From NCBI GenBank assembly GCA_902604245.1, contig CACKXQ010000004.1, positions 23,896 to 87,895 on the forward strand: 64,000 nt of DNA, read 5' to 3'. The translations under genes and the position numbers were made by a program. Source of the DNA: an uncultured Pelagibacteraceae bacterium. Its GTDB lineage: Bacteria; Pseudomonadota; Alphaproteobacteria; Pelagibacterales; Pelagibacteraceae. The number at the start of each line of letters is the position of its first letter. Within the stretch, counting starts at the first letter, position 1. Below are positions 32,102 through 46,511 of this stretch, one piece after another. The notes under the pieces were generated by a model that was given only the letters and a program-made list of their open reading frames with translations, did no database searches and was not told the DNA's origin.

Positions 32102-33007
32102 ATGAATTGGATAGTTGTTACAGTTATTGCTGCTTTTTTTCAAAATTTAAGGTCTTCATTTCAAAAAAAAATAAATAAAGATGTTTCAACAATAGCTTCA
32201 ACTTACGTAAGGTTTTCTTTTGCTTTACCTTTAGCATTAGTATTGTTTTTTATATATTTCAGAGAAGTTTCTGTAATTAATGAAATACTTAATCAACCAG
32301 GTTTTTTAATAAATGTAACTCTAGCATCAATTTTTCAAGTAATATTTACCTTCGTATTATTGTACTTATTTAAGTTTTCAAATTTTGTTGTTGGAACCTC
32401 GCTAAGTAAAACAGAAGTTGTTCAAGTAGCTATATTTGAATATCTAATATTAAATGAAAAATTGAGTAAGTTAGGAATTAGTGGCATTTTAATATCAACT
32501 TTAGGAGTAATAATTCTATCAATTAAAGATTTAAAATTTTTTTTATATAATATGTTTTCAAAAACTACATTAATAGGTTTGGTATCAGGTTTATTTTTAG
32601 CTTTGAGTATAGTTTATTTTAGATCTGCTGCCTTATCTTTAGAAAATTTTGACTCTAATTTTGAAAAAGTAATATCAACCTTACTTTTTGGATTATTAAT
32701 TCCAACAATTATTTTAACTTTATATCTTTTAGTCTTTGAAAAAAAAGAATTTAGAAAATTATATAATGATAGATATGATTGTATGTTAATTGGTATTGGA
32801 GGATTTTTTGCCTCACTATCATGGTTTTATGCATTTACTCTAATCCAAGCGTCTTTTGTAAGAGCAGTTGGTCAAATCGAATTATTATTTAGTTATTTTT
32901 CCTCAAAATATTTATTTAAAGAAAAAATAAAGTTAACAGAAATTCTAGGTATTTTTGTTTTTGTAATTGGAGTTAGTATTTTATTACTTTCTAGAGTTCA
33001 AAACTAA
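32102..33007 (+). CDS. EamA/DMT family transporter
   Basis: ~10 TM, two DMT repeats. Confidence 0.82.
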   Translation: MNWIVVTVIAAFFQNLRSSFQKKINKDVSTIASTYVRFSFALPLALVLFFIYFREVSVINEILNQPGFLINVTLASIFQVIFTFVLLYLFKFSNFVVGTSLSKTEVVQVAIFEYLILNEKLSKLGISGILISTLGVIILSIKDLKFFLYNMFSKTTLIGLVSGLFLALSIVYFRSAALSLENFDSNFEKVISTLLFGLLIPTIILTLYLLVFEKKEFRKLYNDRYDCMLIGIGGFFASLSWFYAFTLIQASFVRAVGQIELLFSYFSSKYLFKEKIKLTEILGIFVFVIGVSILLLSRVQN

Positions 33008-34290
33008 TTTGAAAATCCATATTTTCTAAGTCTTACATCTCCAGTTCGAGCATGAGCCTCCATACCTTCATACCTTGAAATTCTTGCACATGCTGCACCT
33101 ACTTCTTTAGTAGACTCCTTAGTCATTCTTTGGAAACTTAAAGTTTTTATAAATTTTCCAACAAATAAACCGCCTGTATATTTTCCTGCACCTTTTGTTG
33201 GTAAAATATGGTTTGTTCCAGAACATTTATCTCCATAAGCAACCGTAGTTTCTTCTCCTATAAATAATGATCCATAATTTTTTAATCGATCATGAAACCA
33301 TTGAAGGTTTTTAGTTTGTATCTCTAAATGCTCAGGTGCATATTCATCACTAATTTTTGCCATTTCTTCATCCGTATCGCACAAAATAACTTCTCCATAA
33401 TCTCTCCAAGCTGCACCAGAGTTTTCTCGTGGCAAGTCTGGTAAGTCTGCAATTAATTCTGGAACTCTTTTCATAACGTATTCAGCTAATGACTTACTAG
33501 TAGTAAATAACCAAGCAGGAGAGTTGTAACCATGCTCTGCTTGCCCAACTAAATCAAAAGCAACTAATTCTGGGTCAGCTGTTTCGTCTGCTATGACGGC
33601 AATTTCTGTGGGACCAGCAAATAAATCTATACCTACTTTGCCAAATAAAATTCTTTTTGACTCTGCAACAAATTGATTTCCAGGACCAACAAGCATATCT
33701 GCGGGAGCATTACCAAAAAGACCATAAGTCATTGCAGCAATAGCTTGAACTCCACCTAAATTCATTATTACATCCGCTCCACACAAGTCAGCAGTATAAA
33801 CAATAGCTGGATGAACTCCCACTCCAGGTTTTGGCGAACTGCAAACAATAATATTTTTAACGCCTGCAACTTTTGCCGTTGTTACACTCATTACAGCTGA
33901 AGCTATATGAGCATATCTTCCAGCAGGTACATAACATCCTGCTGTATTAACAGGAATTAATTTTTGACCAGCAAATAATCCATCTGAAAGTTCAACTTCA
34001 AAATCTTGCCCATAATTTTTTAATTGTGCTTCAGCAAACTTTCTTACTCTCTCATGGGAAAATTGAATATCATCTTTGGTTTTAGGATTTAAATTCTTTT
34101 TAATTTGCTCAATTTTTTCTCTTGTAACTACGACTTCTCCTTCGTATTTATCAAATTTTTTTGATAATTCGATACATCCTTCTTCTTTTGTTTTCTCTAT
34201 GTCTTTTAGAATGTTCTCTACAATCTCTCTAGTTTTAGTATCATCAGTAGAAGATGTTTTTGGTGATTTCTTTAAATAATTTATTGCCAT
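33004..34290 (-). CDS. hpsN: Histidinol dehydrogenase superfamily; most like sulfopropanediol 3-dehydrogenase (HpsN)
   Basis: GRYAHIASAVMSVTTAKVAGVKNIIV; GPGNQFVAESKRILFGKVGIDLFAGPTE; next to Pta-like gene rather than his genes. Confidence 0.65.
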   Translation of the reverse strand: MAINYLKKSPKTSSTDDTKTREIVENILKDIEKTKEEGCIELSKKFDKYEGEVVVTREKIEQIKKNLNPKTKDDIQFSHERVRKFAEAQLKNYGQDFEVELSDGLFAGQKLIPVNTAGCYVPAGRYAHIASAVMSVTTAKVAGVKNIIVCSSPKPGVGVHPAIVYTADLCGADVIMNLGGVQAIAAMTYGLFGNAPADMLVGPGNQFVAESKRILFGKVGIDLFAGPTEIAVIADETADPELVAFDLVGQAEHGYNSPAWLFTTSKSLAEYVMKRVPELIADLPDLPRENSGAAWRDYGEVILCDTDEEMAKISDEYAPEHLEIQTKNLQWFHDRLKNYGSLFIGEETTVAYGDKCSGTNHILPTKGAGKYTGGLFVGKFIKTLSFQRMTKESTKEVGAACARISRYEGMEAHARTGDVRLRKYGFSN

Positions 34291-34332
34291 GTCTAAATCC
34301 TAATTTAATTATAATTTTTTTTCAATATTCAT

Positions 34333-35244
34333 TTAATCTAAAGCTACCACAGCTGCTGCAATAGAGGCTAGCCTTGCTGTCGCATCATCTGATCTACTAG
34401 TAATTACCACTGGAACTTTTCCTCCTATAACCACTCCTGCCGCACATGCTCCCATAAAATAAATCATCATTTTAACCAGGGCGTTTCCTGTTTCAACATT
34501 CGGAACTAATAATACGTCAGCATCTCCTGCAACTATATTTTTTATACCTTTTATCTCTGCTGATTTTTTTGACACGCTGTTATCAAATGCAAGAGGTCCA
34601 AAAATATCTGCATTTAAATTCTCCTGTTCAGCTAAATCACATATTTCTTTAGCATCCAGTGAACTTTGCATGCTATCTAAAACCTCCTCTGTTGCAGAAA
34701 GAATGGAGACTTTTGGTTTGGATATTTTAATTCTATGACAAAAATCAACTACATTTTTAAGAATATGCATTTTTGTTTTAACATTTGGATTAACATTGAG
34801 GGCTCCATCAGTTATTATTAAAGGTTTATCTTCTTTATCTAAAGTCATATGCCAAATGTGACTCAATCTTTTTTTACCAATTAAATTATATTTTCGTAAT
34901 AAAACTTCTTTCATCAAGATGTCAGTATGAATATGGCCTTTTACAATTATTTTAACTTTCTCATCCCCAGCAAGTTTTGCAGCAACTTTTGCTGTATTAT
35001 TTTCAACTGGTTCATTGATGATTTCAAAATCTGATATATCAAATTTTAAATCCTCAGCAGTTTTTTTAATTTCAATTTCATTACCTATTAAAACAGGTGT
35101 GATTAATTTTTCTTTAACCGAATCCATAATGGCTAACATAGGAAGTTTTTTACCTGCATTTACAATTGCAGCTTTTGCTCCTCTTTTATTATTAGCAATA
35201 TCAAGCAAATTGATGGGACAAACTGTAGATTTATCAGAAAGCAT
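34333..35244 (-). CDS. Phosphate acetyl/butyryltransferase-like protein
   Basis: LITPVLIGNEIEIKKTAEDL; GPLAFDNSVSKKSAEIKGI; NVETGNALVKMMIYFMGACAAGVVIGGKVPVVITSRSD. Confidence 0.85.
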   Translation of the reverse strand: MLSDKSTVCPINLLDIANNKRGAKAAIVNAGKKLPMLAIMDSVKEKLITPVLIGNEIEIKKTAEDLKFDISDFEIINEPVENNTAKVAAKLAGDEKVKIIVKGHIHTDILMKEVLLRKYNLIGKKRLSHIWHMTLDKEDKPLIITDGALNVNPNVKTKMHILKNVVDFCHRIKISKPKVSILSATEEVLDSMQSSLDAKEICDLAEQENLNADIFGPLAFDNSVSKKSAEIKGIKNIVAGDADVLLVPNVETGNALVKMMIYFMGACAAGVVIGGKVPVVITSRSDDATARLASIAAAVVALD

Positions 35245-35306: not shown

Positions 35307-36155
35307 GTGGAAATAGTTACAAAAATAGCTCCAATCTCACTTGCTCTTATAATGCTAGGTCTTGGACTAGGATTAACTGGTCGTGATTTTTTAAGAGTGC
35401 TTAATAATCCAAAGGATTTTATAGTTGGTTTTATTTGCCAATTGATATTATTGCCAGTAGTTGCATACATCATTGTATTAATAATGGATTTACCCATTGA
35501 GATTGCTTTAGGTATTATGATAATCGCTGCTGCACCTGGAGGCGTGACTACAAATGTTATGACAAAATTTGCAAATGGAGATGTTGCATTATCTATCTCT
35601 TTAACCGCTATAATAAGTCTAATCAGTATTATTTCTGTGCCTTTTATTATTTTTAAATCTGCAGATTTATTAGGGAGCACAGGCATGTCTTCCAATCTTA
35701 CCATGACAGGTATTGCATTAAAAATGGCTTTAGTTGTTACCGTTCCTGTAATCTTAGGGATGACTATCAGAAAATTTGCGGTAAACTTTGTTTCGTCAAA
35801 TATTTCTATAATTGAGAAGATTACAATAGTTTTATTTCTAATTGTTTTTGCTGCAATTATAGTTGAAGAAAAAGATAATATTTTAAATTATTTTAAACAA
35901 GCAGGTATAGCTGCACTTACTCTTAATGTTGTTATGATATTGCTGTCATATTATATAGCAAAGTTCTTTGCATCAGGCGTTAAGCAAAGAAAGTGTATTT
36001 CAATTGAGTGTGGTCTTCAAAATGGGACATTAGCAATATTTGTGGCTACACAAATATTTAATGATATTAGTTATGTCATTCCAACAGCTGCATATGCCCT
36101 TATAATGTATTTAACAGGTTTTATTTTAATTTTTGTCCTACGGAAATCTACTTAA
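35307..36155 (+). CDS. Bile acid:sodium symporter (BASS) family transporter
   Basis: MLGLGLGLTGRDF; IIAAAPGGVTTNVMTKFANGDVALSISLT; ECGLQNGTLAIFVA. Confidence 0.92.
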   Translation: MEIVTKIAPISLALIMLGLGLGLTGRDFLRVLNNPKDFIVGFICQLILLPVVAYIIVLIMDLPIEIALGIMIIAAAPGGVTTNVMTKFANGDVALSISLTAIISLISIISVPFIIFKSADLLGSTGMSSNLTMTGIALKMALVVTVPVILGMTIRKFAVNFVSSNISIIEKITIVLFLIVFAAIIVEEKDNILNYFKQAGIAALTLNVVMILLSYYIAKFFASGVKQRKCISIECGLQNGTLAIFVATQIFNDISYVIPTAAYALIMYLTGFILIFVLRKST

Positions 36156-37113
36156 TATTCATTTTGCCAAATATCTTAAAGATTAAATAAGCAAGAGAGT
36201 GAACATTTTTCTCTTGTAGTTTAATTGTATCAGTTAAAGCTTTGTCTTTCATTTTAACGTTAAATAATTTTTTTTTGTTAACACTTATATATTTATTTTT
36301 TAACAAATAATTTAATTTCCTTACCACTGTTGGTCTGGGAATATTAGTTATTTCTGAAATTGACATTGTGTTAACCCCAGTCTCAGGAACTTTAATTTTA
36401 TTTTCTTTCCACTTTGAAAAATTCCATCCATTTGCTTCATAAGATTTTGTAACAAGTGAATGCCACATTATAACCATTCCAACCGAAAATATTTCAAGAT
36501 CTCCTACTTGTTTTTTCCATCTATTTGTAAAAATAAAAATAAATTCACAAAAAAAATACCAACAATATGTAAAATTGTTATTAATTTCATTTAAGATTTC
36601 ATCAAATTGCTTTGACTGAATGATAAGGTTATTTTTTTTACATAATTCAACAATTTTTGAGAGCAATGTACTTAAATTTTTAAGTGTGCTTTTTGATTGA
36701 ACTAATTTAAAAGCTGATCTGTCTATATAAATATTTTTGTGTACTTTTTTTAATACACCAAACTCTTCTAAGCGAAGAATTTTTCTGCGTACACTTTCTT
36801 TTGGAATGTTTAAATTTCTCGATATTTCAATAATGTTTATTCTGCCTAGTTCTAAGGATTTATCATATAAAAAAAAACCATCATAACTTTCCACAAGTCC
36901 ATTTTTTATGTAATAAGCAAAATCTTTTTGTATTAGATAAAGAATTATTAGATATTTTTCTATGTCTTGAAATTTGTTAAAGGAGGAATTTACCCATTCA
37001 GATAATAATTTGTAGTAAATGGGAGCGATTTCATCAAAATTTTCTATAATAATTTTATGAATATTTTTTTCGCTTAATTGTGATGAGTTTGTAATCATTT
37101 TCCGCAAACCCAT
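36148..37113 (-). CDS. Uncharacterised regulator with two winged-HTH segments
   Basis: IPKESVRRKILRLEEFGVLKK and IPRPTVVRKLNYLLKNKYISV; HTH-like repeats in N- and C-terminal halves. Confidence 0.7.
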   Translation of the reverse strand: MGLRKMITNSSQLSEKNIHKIIIENFDEIAPIYYKLLSEWVNSSFNKFQDIEKYLIILYLIQKDFAYYIKNGLVESYDGFFLYDKSLELGRINIIEISRNLNIPKESVRRKILRLEEFGVLKKVHKNIYIDRSAFKLVQSKSTLKNLSTLLSKIVELCKKNNLIIQSKQFDEILNEINNNFTYCWYFFCEFIFIFTNRWKKQVGDLEIFSVGMVIMWHSLVTKSYEANGWNFSKWKENKIKVPETGVNTMSISEITNIPRPTVVRKLNYLLKNKYISVNKKKLFNVKMKDKALTDTIKLQEKNVHSLAYLIFKIFGKMNIK

Positions 37114-37204
37114 TTTAAACTTTTCACCCCATTTTGGACATTAAATAAAATTTGATTAACCCATTTTGGTCACTTGAAGAAATAAAAATACTCAATTTGG
37201 TGAC
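37106..37204. promoter_or_regulatory. Cluster of CCCATTTTGGACA-like operator repeats
   Basis: CCCATTTT at 37109, 37128, 37160 and variant CTCAATTTGG at 37191; two spacings of 31-32 bp. Confidence 0.65.
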
Positions 37205-37249: not shown

Positions 37250-37462
37250 ATGAGTTACAATATTCAAAATAGAGCATCTAATATTGAAATTTCTTCTCAA
37301 TTAACAGGTGACAATAATATTGATACCCCTCAAAAAGTAAATATTGATGCTCTAAAGTCTAAAATCAGAGCTCAAGAAAAAAAAGAAAACTTTAAGAATA
37401 AAGCAATCTTTGTATCACTATTTATTGGATTAGGAACTATTGGATATTTTGTTTCGAGTTAA
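37250..37462 (+). CDS. Small hypothetical protein with C-terminal TM helix
   Basis: 70-aa ORF divergent to regulator. Confidence 0.6.
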   Translation: MSYNIQNRASNIEISSQLTGDNNIDTPQKVNIDALKSKIRAQEKKENFKNKAIFVSLFIGLGTIGYFVSS

Positions 37463-37899: not shown

Positions 37900-38904
37900 C
37901 TATTTCAATAGAATACGAATATCCTCCATTATATTATCTGGAATTTTAATCTCAGATTTATAATTTTTTTTATATCTTCTTAACTTATTTTCCCCTGGAT
38001 ATAATATTTCTTTAAGTCCTTTTAATTTAGGAAGTTTTTTAATTCTTTTTATGTTTTCTTTTATTCTTTTTTTGTAATTAGATTGAAATAAGTTTGCTTT
38101 CATCACAATAAATAAATGACCAATATTTTGTGGGCCAGAAAAATCATCAAAAGGATCTTTCACTTTACCACCATGATTACCTCCAGTATAAACACCACTT
38201 AATATATCAACCATCCACGCAAGTCCTGATCCTCTAAATCCCGCTATAGGAAGTTGAACACCCTCAAGTGCTTTTTTTGCATCAGTTGTGGGATTGCCAA
38301 ATTTATCCAAGGCAACTCCTTCAGGAATTTTTGAATTTGATCTTGATGCAACTCTTATTTTCCCTCTATTAATCATTGAGACAGATGTATCTAATATAAA
38401 TGGAACTTTAGAACCAGTTGGCGATCCAAAGCAAATAGGGTTTGTACCAAATAAAGATTTTATAGCTCCATGTGGGGCAATTGCAGGTGGTGCATTAGTG
38501 AATACTAAGGCGATCATATTTTTTTTTACAGCTTGTTCAGCGTAATATCCTGACATGCCGTAATGACCACTGTTTTTAACTGCAACAAGTCCTATTCCTG
38601 TTTTTTTTGCATTTTTTATGGCTTTTTTAATAGCTGTATCTGCAGCAATAAATCCAATGCTGTCATCAGCATTAATATGAGTAACAGATGGGGAAATATT
38701 TTTTAGTTTGATTTTAGGCCTTGGATTAATCAGCTTTTTTTTGATCCGATCACAATACATTTTTAATCTAGATAATCCATGGGTTGGAGCGCCTACTAAT
38801 TCAGCATTAATTATTGCATCAGCACAAATACCTGCATGTTTTTTTGAAAGTTTAAACTTATAAAATATCTTAATAATAGTCTTTTTAAGTTTATTTTTTT
38901 CCAT
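37900..38904 (-). CDS. Ldh family malate/L-lactate-type dehydrogenase
   Basis: GAPTHGLSRLKMYCDRI; NSGHYGMSGYYAEQA; FGTNPICFGSPTG. Confidence 0.9.
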   Translation of the reverse strand: MEKNKLKKTIIKIFYKFKLSKKHAGICADAIINAELVGAPTHGLSRLKMYCDRIKKKLINPRPKIKLKNISPSVTHINADDSIGFIAADTAIKKAIKNAKKTGIGLVAVKNSGHYGMSGYYAEQAVKKNMIALVFTNAPPAIAPHGAIKSLFGTNPICFGSPTGSKVPFILDTSVSMINRGKIRVASRSNSKIPEGVALDKFGNPTTDAKKALEGVQLPIAGFRGSGLAWMVDILSGVYTGGNHGGKVKDPFDDFSGPQNIGHLFIVMKANLFQSNYKKRIKENIKRIKKLPKLKGLKEILYPGENKLRRYKKNYKSEIKIPDNIMEDIRILLK

Positions 38905-40065: not shown

Positions 40066-41991
40066 TTAACCCTTTCCTCGCCAAGGAATAGTTCTATCAA
40101 TTATTTTTCTTAAAGTTATATCAAATAATAATCCTAACATTCCCATAATAAAAATTGTTATCCAAATTACTTCATATTGAAAATATTTTTTTGCAACATT
40201 TTCAACAAATCCAATACCCGTAGTTCCAGCTAAAAATTCTGCTGCTACCAAAGTTCCCCAACACATTCCAACAGCCACTCTAATTCCAGTAAGAATTTCA
40301 GGTAAAGAGTTTGGAAATATAACATGACGAAGTATTTGTCTTTTAGAAGCACCTAACGAGTGTGCAGCATGAATTTTAGAAAGTTGAGTTCCTGATGCTC
40401 CAGCTCTAGCAGATATAATCATAATTGATAAAGAAACCATAAATAATAAAAATACTTTTCCAGTATTATCAATTCCAAGGACTGAAATTATAAGTGGAGC
40501 CCAAGCTAATGGAGGCACTGGTCTATATAATTCAATCAAAGGATCAAAGAAACCTTTAGCAAATCGGTTTAGACCCATAAACAAACCTAATGGAACCCCT
40601 ATAATTATTCCAAAAACCAATCCTAAAAATACTCTTAAGAATGAATCCCATATATGACCATAAGGAACAGGTATCTTGAATAGTTTAAAATCACCCGTAA
40701 CAACTTTTAAAACTTTACCTTTAAAGTTTTCTTTGACTATCCCTTCGCTTGTATGAACAGGGTATTCGCCTGGCAAAATATCAGCAATCCAATCTGGTAA
40801 AATAAATCCAACTATTGAACTAACATCAATCATTTCTATCCAGAGAAGAGGTATATTTTTGTATCCAACACTTGGATTAGACATAAGGATAAATTTATTT
40901 AATGTATCTGACGGTTTAGGTAACCATCTACCAGAACCTTGTTCCGAGCAACTTGGACCACTTGCAACAATTGTTCCAGCTGGAAATAAAACAATATCAA
41001 TTAATCTAAGACCAGCTTGTTCTTTCTCCTGAAGGTCATCAAATTCAATTATCGCCTTTTGCATTTCATTTAGTGCATTTGGAGGATAAATGCTTGCAAA
41101 TTCAATTCTTCTTGCAATTTTGACTATATTTTTAGCATAATCTGAGGCAATTTCCTCATTATCATCTAAACTTTTTCTATAAGCTTTAACTTCATCTTTC
41201 AGTTCTTTAATTGAACTTTTGAACTGTGGATTGTGATTTCTTAATTTAAAAAATTTATCATTAATTTTTTTCAGTTCCTCTGCAGCAGCTTGAAATTTTA
41301 AACCTTTTGAAGTTTCTGCAACAAACGGAACTTCAATAGTATTTTCTATAGTACCAGTTCCTGATCTAACTGTTGTTATGCCCCAGTTACCTTGCTCAGA
41401 TATTGCTTTTAACCGTTCATTTTTTTCAACTTCTGTTTCAAATGGATAATCTTCTTTTATAAAATTTGAACTTAATTGTTTAATCTCATTTGTCATTTCA
41501 CTTATTTTAATTTTAGTATCCATTTCAATTAAATCCTCGTTAGTTAACAAAGGAATTAATTTTTTTGTTTTATTTATATATCCAACTAAAATTGTTTTTT
41601 GTTGATTACTAAGATCTTTAGAATTTTGTATTTCAGCTGTTATTTTTTGAAGATTTTTATTTTCAATCTTTATGATCGATGTACTTTTAAATTCACGTTC
41701 TTCTATTGGAAATTGATATTTTAATCCTAACAGTGACTCATTTATTTTAGCAACTTGACATAATTCATTTGCTGATTTTGGATAAAAACCTTTTGCTATG
41801 TCCCAAGAGTAATAAAGCCATACTAGTAATATTGCAGCACTTCCAACAATAACCCAATGGGTTCCACCTTTAGCTCTTTCAGGATTTCCAAATACAGCAT
41901 CAACTTTCTCAGTTTGTATTAGTCTTCTGCCGTACAAAATGCATCCAATTATGGATACAAATATAAGTATGGTGATTATTTGAGTTAACAT
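40066..41991 (-). CDS. tauC: Taurine-type ABC transporter permease with long N-terminal coiled-coil extension
   Basis: C-terminal permease motifs (LYRPVPPLAWAPLII; HSLGASKRQILRHVIFPNSLPEILTGIRVAVG); 641 aa. Confidence 0.85.
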   Translation of the reverse strand: MLTQIITILIFVSIIGCILYGRRLIQTEKVDAVFGNPERAKGGTHWVIVGSAAILLVWLYYSWDIAKGFYPKSANELCQVAKINESLLGLKYQFPIEEREFKSTSIIKIENKNLQKITAEIQNSKDLSNQQKTILVGYINKTKKLIPLLTNEDLIEMDTKIKISEMTNEIKQLSSNFIKEDYPFETEVEKNERLKAISEQGNWGITTVRSGTGTIENTIEVPFVAETSKGLKFQAAAEELKKINDKFFKLRNHNPQFKSSIKELKDEVKAYRKSLDDNEEIASDYAKNIVKIARRIEFASIYPPNALNEMQKAIIEFDDLQEKEQAGLRLIDIVLFPAGTIVASGPSCSEQGSGRWLPKPSDTLNKFILMSNPSVGYKNIPLLWIEMIDVSSIVGFILPDWIADILPGEYPVHTSEGIVKENFKGKVLKVVTGDFKLFKIPVPYGHIWDSFLRVFLGLVFGIIIGVPLGLFMGLNRFAKGFFDPLIELYRPVPPLAWAPLIISVLGIDNTGKVFLLFMVSLSIMIISARAGASGTQLSKIHAAHSLGASKRQILRHVIFPNSLPEILTGIRVAVGMCWGTLVAAEFLAGTTGIGFVENVAKKYFQYEVIWITIFIMGMLGLLFDITLRKIIDRTIPWRGKG

Positions 41992-42789
41992 TTAGTTTTC
42001 TTTTCCCATAATTTCTTCTTCCATATTCCAAATCATAGATAAAATTTCCTCACGCTTAGATGAAAATTCTTTATTTTTTTTAATTTCTCTTAAATCTTCT
42101 TTTAAACCCATTTCTGCAAAAGGAAGATTGTATTCTTTATGTATCCTTCCTGGTCTTGGTGCCATTACATATAGTCTTTCACCAAGTAATAGAGCTTCTT
42201 CAACTGAGTGAGTAATTAAGATGATAGTTTTTCCTGTTTCTTTCCAAATTTTAAGAACCAAAGATTGCATCTTTTCTCTAGTTAATGCATCTAACGCACC
42301 TAAAGGCTCATCCATCAATATTAAATCAGGGTCATTTATTAGACATCTAGCAAGAGCCACTCTTTGCTGCATTCCACCTGACAATTGATAGGTAGGAGTA
42401 TTACCAAACCCTTTTAAGCCAACAATTTCTAGCCATTCATCCACTCTTTTAGCAGTTTTTATTGGATCTTCTTTTTTCATCCTAAGTCCAAAATCAACAT
42501 TTTCAGCAACTGTTAACCACTCAAATAATGCTCCTTGTTGGAAAACCATTCCTCTTTCAACTCCTGGACCATTAATTTCATTGCCAGCTAAAACAATAGA
42601 GCCTGAGGTAGGCCTTAAAAACCCTGCAGCAATATTTAAAAGAGTAGTTTTTCCACATCCTGAAGGACCAAGAACAGTAAGAAGTTCTCCTTTTTTTAAA
42701 GTAAAATTTACATCTTTTAATGCGTGAACAGTTTCACCTTTGGGAGTTTTAAAAATCATATTTAAATCTTTGGAAACTAAGTCACTCAT
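41992..42789 (-). CDS. tauB: Taurine-type ABC transporter ATP-binding protein
   Basis: GPSGCGKTTLLNIAAGFL; LSGGMQQRVALARCL. Confidence 0.9.
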   Translation of the reverse strand: MSDLVSKDLNMIFKTPKGETVHALKDVNFTLKKGELLTVLGPSGCGKTTLLNIAAGFLRPTSGSIVLAGNEINGPGVERGMVFQQGALFEWLTVAENVDFGLRMKKEDPIKTAKRVDEWLEIVGLKGFGNTPTYQLSGGMQQRVALARCLINDPDLILMDEPLGALDALTREKMQSLVLKIWKETGKTIILITHSVEEALLLGERLYVMAPRPGRIHKEYNLPFAEMGLKEDLREIKKNKEFSSKREEILSMIWNMEEEIMGKEN

Positions 42790-42870: not shown

Positions 42871-43812
42871 TTATAAAGGTAAAAAACTAGTATCAACGGC
42901 ACCACCTGGAGTTCCCATACCTTTTAGGAAGCCATCAAGATTACCGCTCTCCATTGACTGTTTAGTCTCTTCTGGAGTAAGAAATTTAAATCCACTTAAA
43001 GTTTCTTTCATGTCAGCAACTTTCATTTCTGAAGCTTTAGACATTGAATTCATATCGCTTTTACCTGCTCTATATCTGTCATTTGCTTCATGAGTTACTT
43101 CTATGAAAGTTCTAAGCATACCTGGATTTTCTTTCATGAATTTGTCAGTTACAGATGTAATATCTATACCTAAGATACCAGCATCTCTTGCTTCTTGAAC
43201 TGTTAAAAGTCTTGAACCAACTGCAACTGCAGCTTTGATAGAATTTCCACCAAATAAACATGCCATCACAACATCACCACTTACTAATGCAGCAGCACCT
43301 TCTTCAGGATCCATTTGAATTATATCCATTTTACTTCTGTCAGCTCCAACAACTTTCATACTTTCGTCAAAGACGTACTCAGCCATAGTTCCAAGTGGAA
43401 CTGCAACTTTTTTACCTTCTAATTCAGAACCGTTTGCTTTTGTAATTCCAGAAGCATTTGATGTAACGCAAGTTGTTCCGCCCATTCCATATTCCATTGC
43501 AATATCAACTAATTTGATAGGTGCATTAGATTTTACAGCATTAATAAAAGGTACTAAACCTTGAGAATAAGAAATATCAATATCCCCAGCTAGCATTGCA
43601 TCAGTCATAGCTCCACCGTTAGTGAAGTTAGTCCATTTTACTGGAACTCCTAGTGCTTTAGCAAAATTCTTTTTTTGCATGTCCTCTAAATTTGGACTTG
43701 GCCATTCTAGAAAGTAAGCAACTCTTACTTCATTTGCAGCAGCATTTGCAGCTGAAATTGACAAGTTAAGAGCGAATAAACTTCCTAAAATAAAGCTAAT
43801 TAGTTTCTTCAT
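42871..43812 (-). CDS. tauA: Taurine-type ABC transporter substrate-binding protein
   Basis: Signal peptide; VRVAYFLEWPSPN; TNGGAMTDAMLAGDIDISYSQGLVPFINAV. Confidence 0.85.
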   Translation of the reverse strand: MKKLISFILGSLFALNLSISAANAAANEVRVAYFLEWPSPNLEDMQKKNFAKALGVPVKWTNFTNGGAMTDAMLAGDIDISYSQGLVPFINAVKSNAPIKLVDIAMEYGMGGTTCVTSNASGITKANGSELEGKKVAVPLGTMAEYVFDESMKVVGADRSKMDIIQMDPEEGAAALVSGDVVMACLFGGNSIKAAVAVGSRLLTVQEARDAGILGIDITSVTDKFMKENPGMLRTFIEVTHEANDRYRAGKSDMNSMSKASEMKVADMKETLSGFKFLTPEETKQSMESGNLDGFLKGMGTPGGAVDTSFLPL

Positions 43813-43910
43813 TTTATCTCCTTAATTAAATTTAATTACCCTTATTTAAGTTCAATTTTGATTATAAGTAAATGTATTTTGTAAGCATATTAATCATAGG
43901 TGATTTGAAG

Positions 43911-43930
43911 ATGTCTAAAATGGGTTCAAC
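43911..43930 (-). promoter_or_regulatory. Operator-like site GTTGAACCCATTTTAGACAT
   Basis: Matches CCCATTTTGGACAT at 37128 in 13 of 14 positions. Confidence 0.55.
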
Positions 43931-44042
43931 TATTGGTTGTAATTAATATTACGTAATGACATACTAATAATGCATAGAAATTATTTTCTATTTTTTTATT
44001 TTAGTCTATGAGAGAGTGATAATAACAATTTAAAAATTTTTT

Positions 44043-45386
44043 ATGAGTTCAGAAAAGCCACAAATACCTAATTCTTTAAATGAGCATTGGATGCCATTCT
44101 CTTCAAATAGAGATTTTAAAGCAAACCCAAGGTTAATAGTTGAAGCAAAAGGTGTTTATTTAAAAAACCACCACGGTAAAACACAAATCGATGCAAGTTC
44201 AGGATTATTTTGTAATCCATTAGGACATGGTAGAGAGGAAATTATTGAAGCGATAACTAAACAACTAAGAACAGTTGATTATGCACAACCTTTCCAACAA
44301 GGATTTGGTGGGTCATTTGAATTAGCAACAAGAATTTCAAAACACACACCAGGAAACTTAAATAGAATTTTTTATACTATTTGTGGATCAACTGCTGTTG
44401 AGACAGCAATAAAAATTTCAGTTGCTTATCACAAAGCTCGAGGAGAGGGGCAGAGATTTAGATTTGTCGGAAGAGAAAGAGCTTACCACGGTATGAATAT
44501 TGGAGCAACATCAGTTGGTGGTATGATCAACAATGTTAAAACATTTGCGAGTGTTTTAATGCCAGGGGTTGTTCATATGAGACATACTCATTTACCTGAA
44601 CATAAATTTGTATCAGGTCAACCAGAAACGGGAGCAGAAATTGCAGATGATTTAGATAGAATTTGTACAAACTTTGGATCAGAAAATATTGCTGCGTGTA
44701 TTGTTGAGCCGATTGCAGGATCAACAGGAACACTTGTTCCACCAAAAGGATATTTACAAAGATTAAGAGAAATTTGTGACAAACAGGGAATCCTTTTGAT
44801 TTTTGATGAAGTAATTACTGGATGGGGAAGAACAGGTTCTCCGTTTGCATCACAAGAATATGGTGTTACTCCGGATATTATTACAATGGCAAAAGCAACA
44901 ACTAATGGAATAAGTCCTTTAGGCGCTGTTGCTTGTAAAGAAGAAATTTATGATGCAGTAATGGATGCATCACCTCATGGGTCAGTTGAATTATTTCATG
45001 GCTATACATATTCTGGAATTCCTGTCTCTGTAGCAGCTGGATTAGCAGTACAAGATATATTTGAAAAAGAAGATATATTTAATAGAGCTAAAAATTTAGC
45101 TCCATACTTTCAAGAAGGATTGATGTCATTGAAGGATATTGATGTTGTTGATAACATTAGAGGATATGGAATGATGGGTGGAATAGATATTAAAATGGAT
45201 AAAAAACCTGGAGCAGCTGGATTTACATGTTTTAAACATTGTTACGATGCAGGTGTTAACTTTAAAGCAACAGGTGATTGTTTAATTATTGCGCCAATGT
45301 TTATTTGCGAAAAAAAACATATAGATGAAATAATTGATAAATTAAGAACTGGAATTACGAATTATTCTAAAAGTAAAAAAAATTAA
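44043..45386 (+). CDS. tpa: Class III aminotransferase, probable taurine/omega-amino acid--pyruvate aminotransferase
   Basis: LIFDEVITGWGRTGSPFASQEYGVTPDIITMAKATTNG; divergent to tauABC, next to ald. Confidence 0.8.
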   Translation: MSSEKPQIPNSLNEHWMPFSSNRDFKANPRLIVEAKGVYLKNHHGKTQIDASSGLFCNPLGHGREEIIEAITKQLRTVDYAQPFQQGFGGSFELATRISKHTPGNLNRIFYTICGSTAVETAIKISVAYHKARGEGQRFRFVGRERAYHGMNIGATSVGGMINNVKTFASVLMPGVVHMRHTHLPEHKFVSGQPETGAEIADDLDRICTNFGSENIAACIVEPIAGSTGTLVPPKGYLQRLREICDKQGILLIFDEVITGWGRTGSPFASQEYGVTPDIITMAKATTNGISPLGAVACKEEIYDAVMDASPHGSVELFHGYTYSGIPVSVAAGLAVQDIFEKEDIFNRAKNLAPYFQEGLMSLKDIDVVDNIRGYGMMGGIDIKMDKKPGAAGFTCFKHCYDAGVNFKATGDCLIIAPMFICEKKHIDEIIDKLRTGITNYSKSKKN

Positions 45387-45395
45387 TTCACTTAT

Positions 45396-46511
45396 ATGAA
45401 AATAGGTGTCCCTAAAGAGATAAAACCTCAAGAAAATAGAATTGGATTAACACCTGATAGTGTAAAAACGCTTACTTCAAATGGTCACGAAGTCTTAGTT
45501 GAGAATGATGGTGGTTTTGAAGCTGGCTTTGATAACAATCAATATAAATCTGCAGGAGCTAAAATAATTGATAAAGCAGAAGATATTTTTAATGATGCAG
45601 AGATAATTGTAAAAGTTAAAGAACCTCTTTCTAATGAAGTAAAAATGTTAAGAGAAAATCAAATTGTTTTTACTTATCTGCATTTAGCTGCTGCCAAAGA
45701 ATTAACAAAAGGTTTAGTAGACTCTAAATCTGTTTGTATCGCTTATGAGACAGTAACTGATAACAACGGTAGGTTACCATTATTAGCACCTATGAGTGCT
45801 GTTGCTGGAAGAATGTCAGTTCAAGCAGGCGCACATTGTTTAGAAAAAAATCAAAAGGGCAGAGGTATTTTGTTAGGAGGCGCTCCAGGTGGAGAGCCTG
45901 CGGAAGTGGTAATTCTTGGTGGAGGAGTTGTTGGAGAAAATGCTGCAATTATTGCAACTGGAATGAGAGCAAAGGTTCATGTTGTAGATAAGTCAGAGGC
46001 AAGACTAAAACAACTATCAGAAATGTTTGGTGATAAAATTATTCCCCAGCTAAGTGATAAAACTGATTTAGAAAAATTAATTTCAGAATGCGATTTATTA
46101 GTTGGAGGAGTTTTAATTCCAGGAGCAGAAGCACCAAAATTAGTTACTAAAAATATGATTAAGAATATGAAACGAGGATCAGTAATAGTTGATGTTGCAA
46201 TTGATCAAGGCGGATGTGTAGAGACTAGCAAACCTACAACTCATGCTGAACCAACTTATATAGTTGATGATATTGTTCATTATTGTGTAGCAAATATGCC
46301 AGGTGGTGTCCCTAGAACATCAACCATCGCATTAAATAATGCTACACTTCCTTTTTTAAACAGATTAGCTAGTGATGGTTATTATAAAGCTTTAAAAAAT
46401 GATCCAAATTTCTTAGCTGGCTTAAATATCCATAAGGGTGAAGTAACGTACAAAGCAGTTGCAGATGTTTTTGGATATAATTATTTAAGCGCTGGTGAGG
46501 CTTTAAATTAA
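45396..46511 (+). CDS. ald: Alanine dehydrogenase
   Basis: MKIGVPKEIKPQENRIGLTP; VVILGGGVVGENAAIIATGM. Confidence 0.95.
   Translation: MKIGVPKEIKPQENRIGLTPDSVKTLTSNGHEVLVENDGGFEAGFDNNQYKSAGAKIIDKAEDIFNDAEIIVKVKEPLSNEVKMLRENQIVFTYLHLAAAKELTKGLVDSKSVCIAYETVTDNNGRLPLLAPMSAVAGRMSVQAGAHCLEKNQKGRGILLGGAPGGEPAEVVILGGGVVGENAAIIATGMRAKVHVVDKSEARLKQLSEMFGDKIIPQLSDKTDLEKLISECDLLVGGVLIPGAEAPKLVTKNMIKNMKRGSVIVDVAIDQGGCVETSKPTTHAEPTYIVDDIVHYCVANMPGGVPRTSTIALNNATLPFLNRLASDGYYKALKNDPNFLAGLNIHKGEVTYKAVADVFGYNYLSAGEALN

Follow-up and report, generated by a model that had tools for sequence, protein, structure and literature searches.

A clade-level link between a regulator with two wHTH domains and the taurine genes is likely in the window (the whole stretch of 64,000 nucleotides that was analysed), through a candidate copy of the regulator's operator that lies between tauABC and tpa-ald. 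On a wider reading, which we hold with roughly even confidence, the regulator belongs to a duplicated, single-chain wHTH family specific to the genus Pelagibacter, with polar pseudo-palindromic operators in a 32-bp tandem, and the taurine divergon was recruited at least twice via single operators flanking a pre-existing dyad. The analysis was computational throughout and used mostly draft genomes. No published account of what controls the taurine genes of SAR11 bacteria was found.

The regulator and its family

The regulator and its neighbours in the window are the following:
36148..37113, minus strand: regulator, 321 aa, with an internal duplication and two wHTH domains
35307..36155, plus strand: gene of the SBF (bile acid:Na+ symporter) family, a constant neighbour of the regulator
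37250..37462, plus strand: ORF of 70 aa whose C-terminus is hydrophobic, oriented divergently to the regulator

The regulator, whose translation might start instead at the in-frame ATG of codon 6, belongs to a family without a Pfam or NCBIfam model of its own. Its Pfam matches are weak wHTH matches, of which TrmB (PF01978) is the sole one over its cut-off (27.7 bits versus 25.6, residues 87-127, covering 41 residues of the first wHTH), and other wHTH families match nearly as many family members as TrmB does; the match to MarR_2 was below cut-off. The two halves of the family profile were computed to align with each other (HHalign probability 98.4%, E 6.6e-15, 144 columns), and the AlphaFold model of the regulator (pLDDT 83, pTM 0.84) contains helices plus a wHTH, twice. 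Foldseek gave no match of this model to solved structures at E 0.001 or better, which is no evidence of a new fold. A second aligner returned wHTH-sized partial matches to IclR- and MarR-type domains (Z 8-9.5, 60-125 residues), with the MarR chain MepR (Z 8.3, 114 residues, rmsd 4.0) tied with IclR and others.

The claim of the earlier note that the regulator does not look like a MocR-type TauR was borne out. The GntR wHTH (PF00392) was not among the Pfam matches of the regulator at E up to 1, and GntR-domain proteins were absent from the 11 genomes of the genus that were searched (the draft genome G000 and 10 others). There was no Pfam match in the regulator to an aminotransferase-like C-terminal domain, its second half being a second helical/wHTH unit, nor to the C-terminal effector (sugar-binding) domain of TrmB, the second half repeating the first.

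Of 201 genomes sampled within the genus, 146 contain a homologue. Across the class, a sparse sample of 289 genomes, only two of them from this genus, contained the regulator in those two and nowhere else, and the named homologue matches came almost all from Pelagibacteraceae single-cell genomes and assemblies. The most constant residues of a 39-member alignment are IPKESxRRK and IPRPTVxRK, and regulators with as little as 24% identity still have the same recognition-helix residues.

An SBF-type sodium symporter gene lies within 1.5 kb of the regulator at 107 of 110 loci; the SBF promoter was rejected as a general target, sites upstream of SBF being found in a few gene arrangements only (for example, L152). 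A crude pattern search found the small divergent ORF at 13 of 113 regulator loci, and similar small ORFs lie beside the regulator in several relatives. The segments around the regulator (33004-35244 and 37900-38904) carry HisD-family, phosphotransacylase-like and Ldh_2-family genes, and the best NCBIfam match of the Ldh_2-family protein is L-sulfolactate dehydrogenase, well below cut-off.

Predicted operators at the regulator promoter

Upstream of the regulator, the array described in the earlier note is refined to two strong predicted sites (37126 and 37158) and a weaker third (37107):
37126..37140, minus strand: regulator promoter operator 2, TGTCCAAAATGGGGT (22.6 bits)
37158..37172, minus strand: regulator promoter operator 1, TGACCAAAATGGGTT (21.9 bits; spaced 32 bp from operator 2)
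37107..37121, minus strand: weaker third copy, AGTTTAAAATGGGTT, clade-specific and overlapping the listed start codon (14.5 bits)

The pattern and its spacing were computed across the family. TGTYCAWWWTGGGTY occurs twice, in direct repeat, upstream of regulator-family genes, and of 95 distinct family promoters, 88 have the operator pair at a spacing of 32 bp and 7 at 31 bp. TTGAC starts inside operator 1 in 32 promoters and just before operator 2 in 11; since the 32 bp are kept in these 11 promoters with TTGAC elsewhere, the core promoter does not by itself set the spacing, and sigma-factor geometry was rejected as its sole cause. In G000 (1.07 Mb, 40 contigs, 76% complete) and 60 relatives, the exact operator pattern was found at 30 places, compared with 5 for the reversed control, and 23 of the 30 sit at regulator promoters. 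An operator also precedes an SBF-regulator gene pair in G209, and in G023 a lone operator copy stands where a neighbouring regulator gene is missing. From the paired direct-repeat operators in the family promoters, we infer that the regulator autoregulates.

Related sites were observed at other loci. A diverged regulator paralogue (G000:C18:13727-14668, locus L243; E 6.9e-45 to the family profile) has the variant site TGCCCATTATGGGGA just before the paralogue gene itself, and at the same locus TGACCATTTTGGGCT and TGCCCAAAATGGGGA, 66 bp apart, precede a TolC-like outer-membrane gene. A perfect TACAACTTTTAGTTGTA lies upstream of a TRAP-type substrate-binding protein gene (L199, G000:C4:11705-11721), and TACAACCTTTAGTTGAA lies between the gene of a ProX-like binding protein and a methyltransferase-like gene divergent from it (L206, G004:C4:102705-102721).

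The candidate operator and the dyad in the taurine spacer

The taurine locus comprises the following features:
40066..42789, minus strand: tauB-like ATPase and tauC-like permease genes
42871..43812, minus strand: tauA-like substrate-binding protein gene
43844..43849, minus strand: putative tauA -10, TTAAAT (read from the sequence and the spacer alignment)
43867..43872, minus strand: putative tauA -35, TTTACT (read likewise; 17-bp spacing to the -10 conserved)
43912..43926, plus strand: candidate operator copy, TGTCTAAAATGGGTT, in the tauA/tpa spacer (17.3 bits by matrix scan; across 23 distinct clade spacers, one of its 15 columns varies)
43926..43940, plus strand: dyad copy TCAAC-N5-GTTGT (ACAAC-N5-GTTGA on the minus strand), directly adjoining the candidate operator (from 59 aligned tau/tpa spacers; coordinate by scan)
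44043..45386, plus strand: tpa-like class III aminotransferase (NCBIfam AptA equivalog, over cut-off)
45396..46511, plus strand: ald, alanine dehydrogenase (over cut-off)

Ald, and Xsc encoded elsewhere in the genome, pass curated cut-offs and the aminotransferase passes as AptA, while TauA, TauB and TauC score below their equivalog cut-offs. Upstream of tpa, TTAGTCTA (TAGACTAA on the other strand), at approximately 44002-44010 and in the same place in relatives, is nearly invariant in all aligned spacers and is a possible tpa promoter element.

The earlier note had reported a 20-mer at 43911-43930 whose minus-strand GTTGAACCCATTTTAGACAT agrees with CCCATTTTGGACAT at 37128 in 13 of 14 positions, placed in a 230-bp spacer between tauA and tpa and oriented relative to tpa-ald as the array is relative to the regulator. 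Sequence, coordinates, strand, number of identities, spacer length and orientation were all confirmed. The natural unit of the predicted site is, however, the 15-mer TGTCTAAAATGGGTT (43912-43926), and at its CAAC/GTTGAA end the 20-mer takes in one arm of a separate putative dyad at 43926-43940: GTTGAA belongs to the dyad ACAAC-N5-RTTGWA, so that the 20-mer joins part of the dyad to the operator.

A scan of the whole window found the 14-mer at up to one mismatch at 37128 and 43911 only. With a matrix built from 41 distinct regulator-promoter sites, TGTCTAAAATGGGTT was the third-best match in the window, and its 17.3 bits lie within the range of the promoter sites themselves (13.4-24.4 bits). 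In the 1.07-Mb draft genome, CCCATTTTRGACAT occurred exactly at 2 places, both inside the same 7-kb stretch, and with one mismatch at three further places; at up to two mismatches there were 24 places versus 16 for the reversed control, so the loose matches are mostly noise. Simulated 64-kb sequence contained 0.15 matches as good as the tau copy, which scales to about 2.5 by chance per genome; the match alone is therefore only suggestive, the score being no proof of function, and the weight for the tau copy is carried by its position and its conservation in relatives. The tau copy is single, with no partner 32 bp away, and tau copies carry T at position 5 in 23 of 23 cases, compared with C in all 41 regulator-promoter sites.

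Clade conservation was computed from 23 distinct tau spacers of the window's clade, in which the site varies at 1 of 15 columns versus 93 of 215 columns elsewhere in the spacer, although conservation is as high or higher in other 15-bp blocks (rank of the site: 23rd of 215). On a tauA+tauB tree, the proximal tau site belongs to a single clade (support 100/99), and a distal site, in the same orientation and on the other side of the dyad, is found in two other clades. These distal sites may stem from two gains, or from a single old gain followed by losses; the separate origin of this second tau copy was computed, and on the tree the predicted tau sites have at least two origins in all. No site of at least 12 bits was present in 48 of 81 distinct tau spacers, among them those of many genomes possessing the regulator. 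A total of 1.98 Mb of fetched, partly redundant loci held 36 matches of at least 14 bits in tau spacers alone, and 35 such matches outside the regulator, tau and SBF promoters.

It is quite improbable that the copy is an AT-rich 15-mer matching by accident, its conservation reflecting a spacer that is constrained, or young, for reasons of another kind. Such an accident would agree with the roughly 2.5 equal-scoring sites expected per genome and with the conservation of other spacer blocks, but at that rate the expectation for these 230 bp of divergent spacer is only about 5e-4, the local conservation extends over a clade with real divergence, and the distal sites, of separate origin, have the same orientation. 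That the tau copy is instead read by the diverged regulator paralogue (G000:C18:13727-14668) appears very remote indeed: the paralogue is of the same family (E 6.9e-45 to the profile) and has related sites nearby (TGCCCATTATGGGGA and TGCCCAAAATGGGGA), but these end differently (TGCCCA, GGGGA) from the tau copy, which scores well with the matrix of the local regulator, and a second family member was found in few genomes of the genus when the local regulator was used as the query.

The dyad ACAAC-N5-RTTGWA is present in nearly all of the 59 aligned tau/tpa spacers and is conserved nearly genus-wide. The element of the tau spacer conserved across the genus is thus the predicted dyad and not the candidate operator, and the dyad would be the likelier general tau operator. 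A genome-wide dyad regulon was rejected, as the pattern was not enriched over the reversed control. NtrX sites are described as CAAN2-5TTG in Sinorhizobium, and GCAN9TGC has been suggested for Rhodobacter (PMC9223101), with which the tau dyad CAAC-N5-GTTG shares the CA-N9-TG spacing. The dyad is, however, missing from the amtB upstream regions, where the stretches examined contained no ACAAC-N5-GTTGT at up to one mismatch and only a few 2-mismatch strings; NtrX was rejected as the factor of the dyad because the same dyad is absent upstream of this nitrogen-limitation gene, and the resemblance may be taken as a lead only.

In G004 (96% complete), no regulator-family match was found and SMR and SBF genes lie side by side where the regulator would be, while the tau site persists in the form TGTCTAAAATAGGTT (12.2 bits), altered at one position, a near-invariant operator G. 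This weakened site fits a recent loss of the regulator with decay of the predicted operator, and also fits another reader. A reader of the latter kind could be the factor that binds the dyad, with CCCATTTTAGACA kept as an extension of ACAAC-N5-RTTGWA and its operator resemblance fortuitous, which we consider unlikely. The block does run gapless into the dyad (TACAAC..RTTGAACCYATTTTAGACA), which is itself conserved nearly genus-wide, position 5 is off the regulator consensus in every tau copy, and in G004 the block, with one change, has outlasted the loss of the regulator; but in most of the genus the dyad stands without the extension, the operator-like site of other lineages is on the opposite side of the dyad, some 10-12 bp off, and the change in G004 hits the near-invariant operator G.

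Proposed control and comparison with known systems

Returning to the clade-level link, we infer binding, the assignment of half-sites, the sign of control and the ligand as follows. The regulator would be a transcription factor with a helical-plus-wHTH unit present twice in a single chain, and its two similar recognition helices (IPKESxRRK and IPRPTVxRK) probably read the unlike halves of the pseudo-palindrome TGTCCA-WWW-TGGGTT; with two unlike half-sites, each operator has a direction. At its own promoter, the two direct-repeat operators, about three helical turns apart, would cover the core promoter or lie next to it, an arrangement suggestive of autorepression. The window's clade has one extra candidate copy, TGTCTAAAATGGGTT, between tauABC and tpa-ald, beside the conserved dyad. 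The centre of this copy is about 82 bp upstream of where tauA transcription would start (putative promoter TTTACT-17-TTAAAT), a position that suits activation or modulation more than direct blocking. From this site the regulator probably modulates both the uptake and the transamination of taurine, in addition to a genus-wide control exerted through the dyad. As a guess, the regulator's ligand might be a metabolite that the SBF protein transports, or else a keto acid, for instance pyruvate, which taurine transamination uses.

The earlier note had linked the regulator to the taurine locus and had suggested a small dedicated regulon for organosulfonate or amino-compound use. The link is favoured by the good operator match, the clade conservation and the second tau site of the same orientation, but does not extend to most tau spacers of the genus, which are without the site. 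The dedicated organosulfonate regulon could not be upheld, given these spacers, an xsc without a site, the constant SBF neighbour and the weakened site kept in G004. The xsc gene was rejected as a target of the regulator, having neither operator nor dyad, with best matrix scores of about 7 bits or less. The patchy tau site, G004, the T at position 5, the lack of both elements at xsc and the steady SBF neighbour together indicate that, as far as sequence comparison can tell, tau is an added, clade-level target at most and the regulator no general taurine switch.

SAR11 bacteria have been described as having few transcriptional regulators (PMC13198564), and a regulator with a genus-wide, well-defined predicted operator offers a testable target in cells where genetics is hard. 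The clade-by-clade gain of predicted sites in the tau spacer would be a clear case of regulon turnover, and the conserved dyad provides a second lead, to the controller of taurine genes across the genus.

As with TauR, of the MocR/GntR subfamily, a wHTH regulator here may control tauABC and tpa; TauR, however, has an aminotransferase-like sensor domain and binds CTGGACYTAA repeats (PMC5320631), and the window's regulator is without such a domain. Direct repeats spaced by two or three helical turns are frequent among MocR operators, a likeness to the tandem at the regulator promoter. The TrmB family (PF01978) provides the best Pfam match, in the first wHTH, but only part of one wHTH matches and the TrmB effector domain was not found in the regulator by Pfam. 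In the MarR-like and IclR-like winged-helix repressors, two chains with one wHTH each form the acting dimer. Each half of the regulator likewise has a wHTH, and its best partial structural matches are IclR- and MarR-type, but in contrast to those dimers the regulator would carry the two copies fused in one chain.
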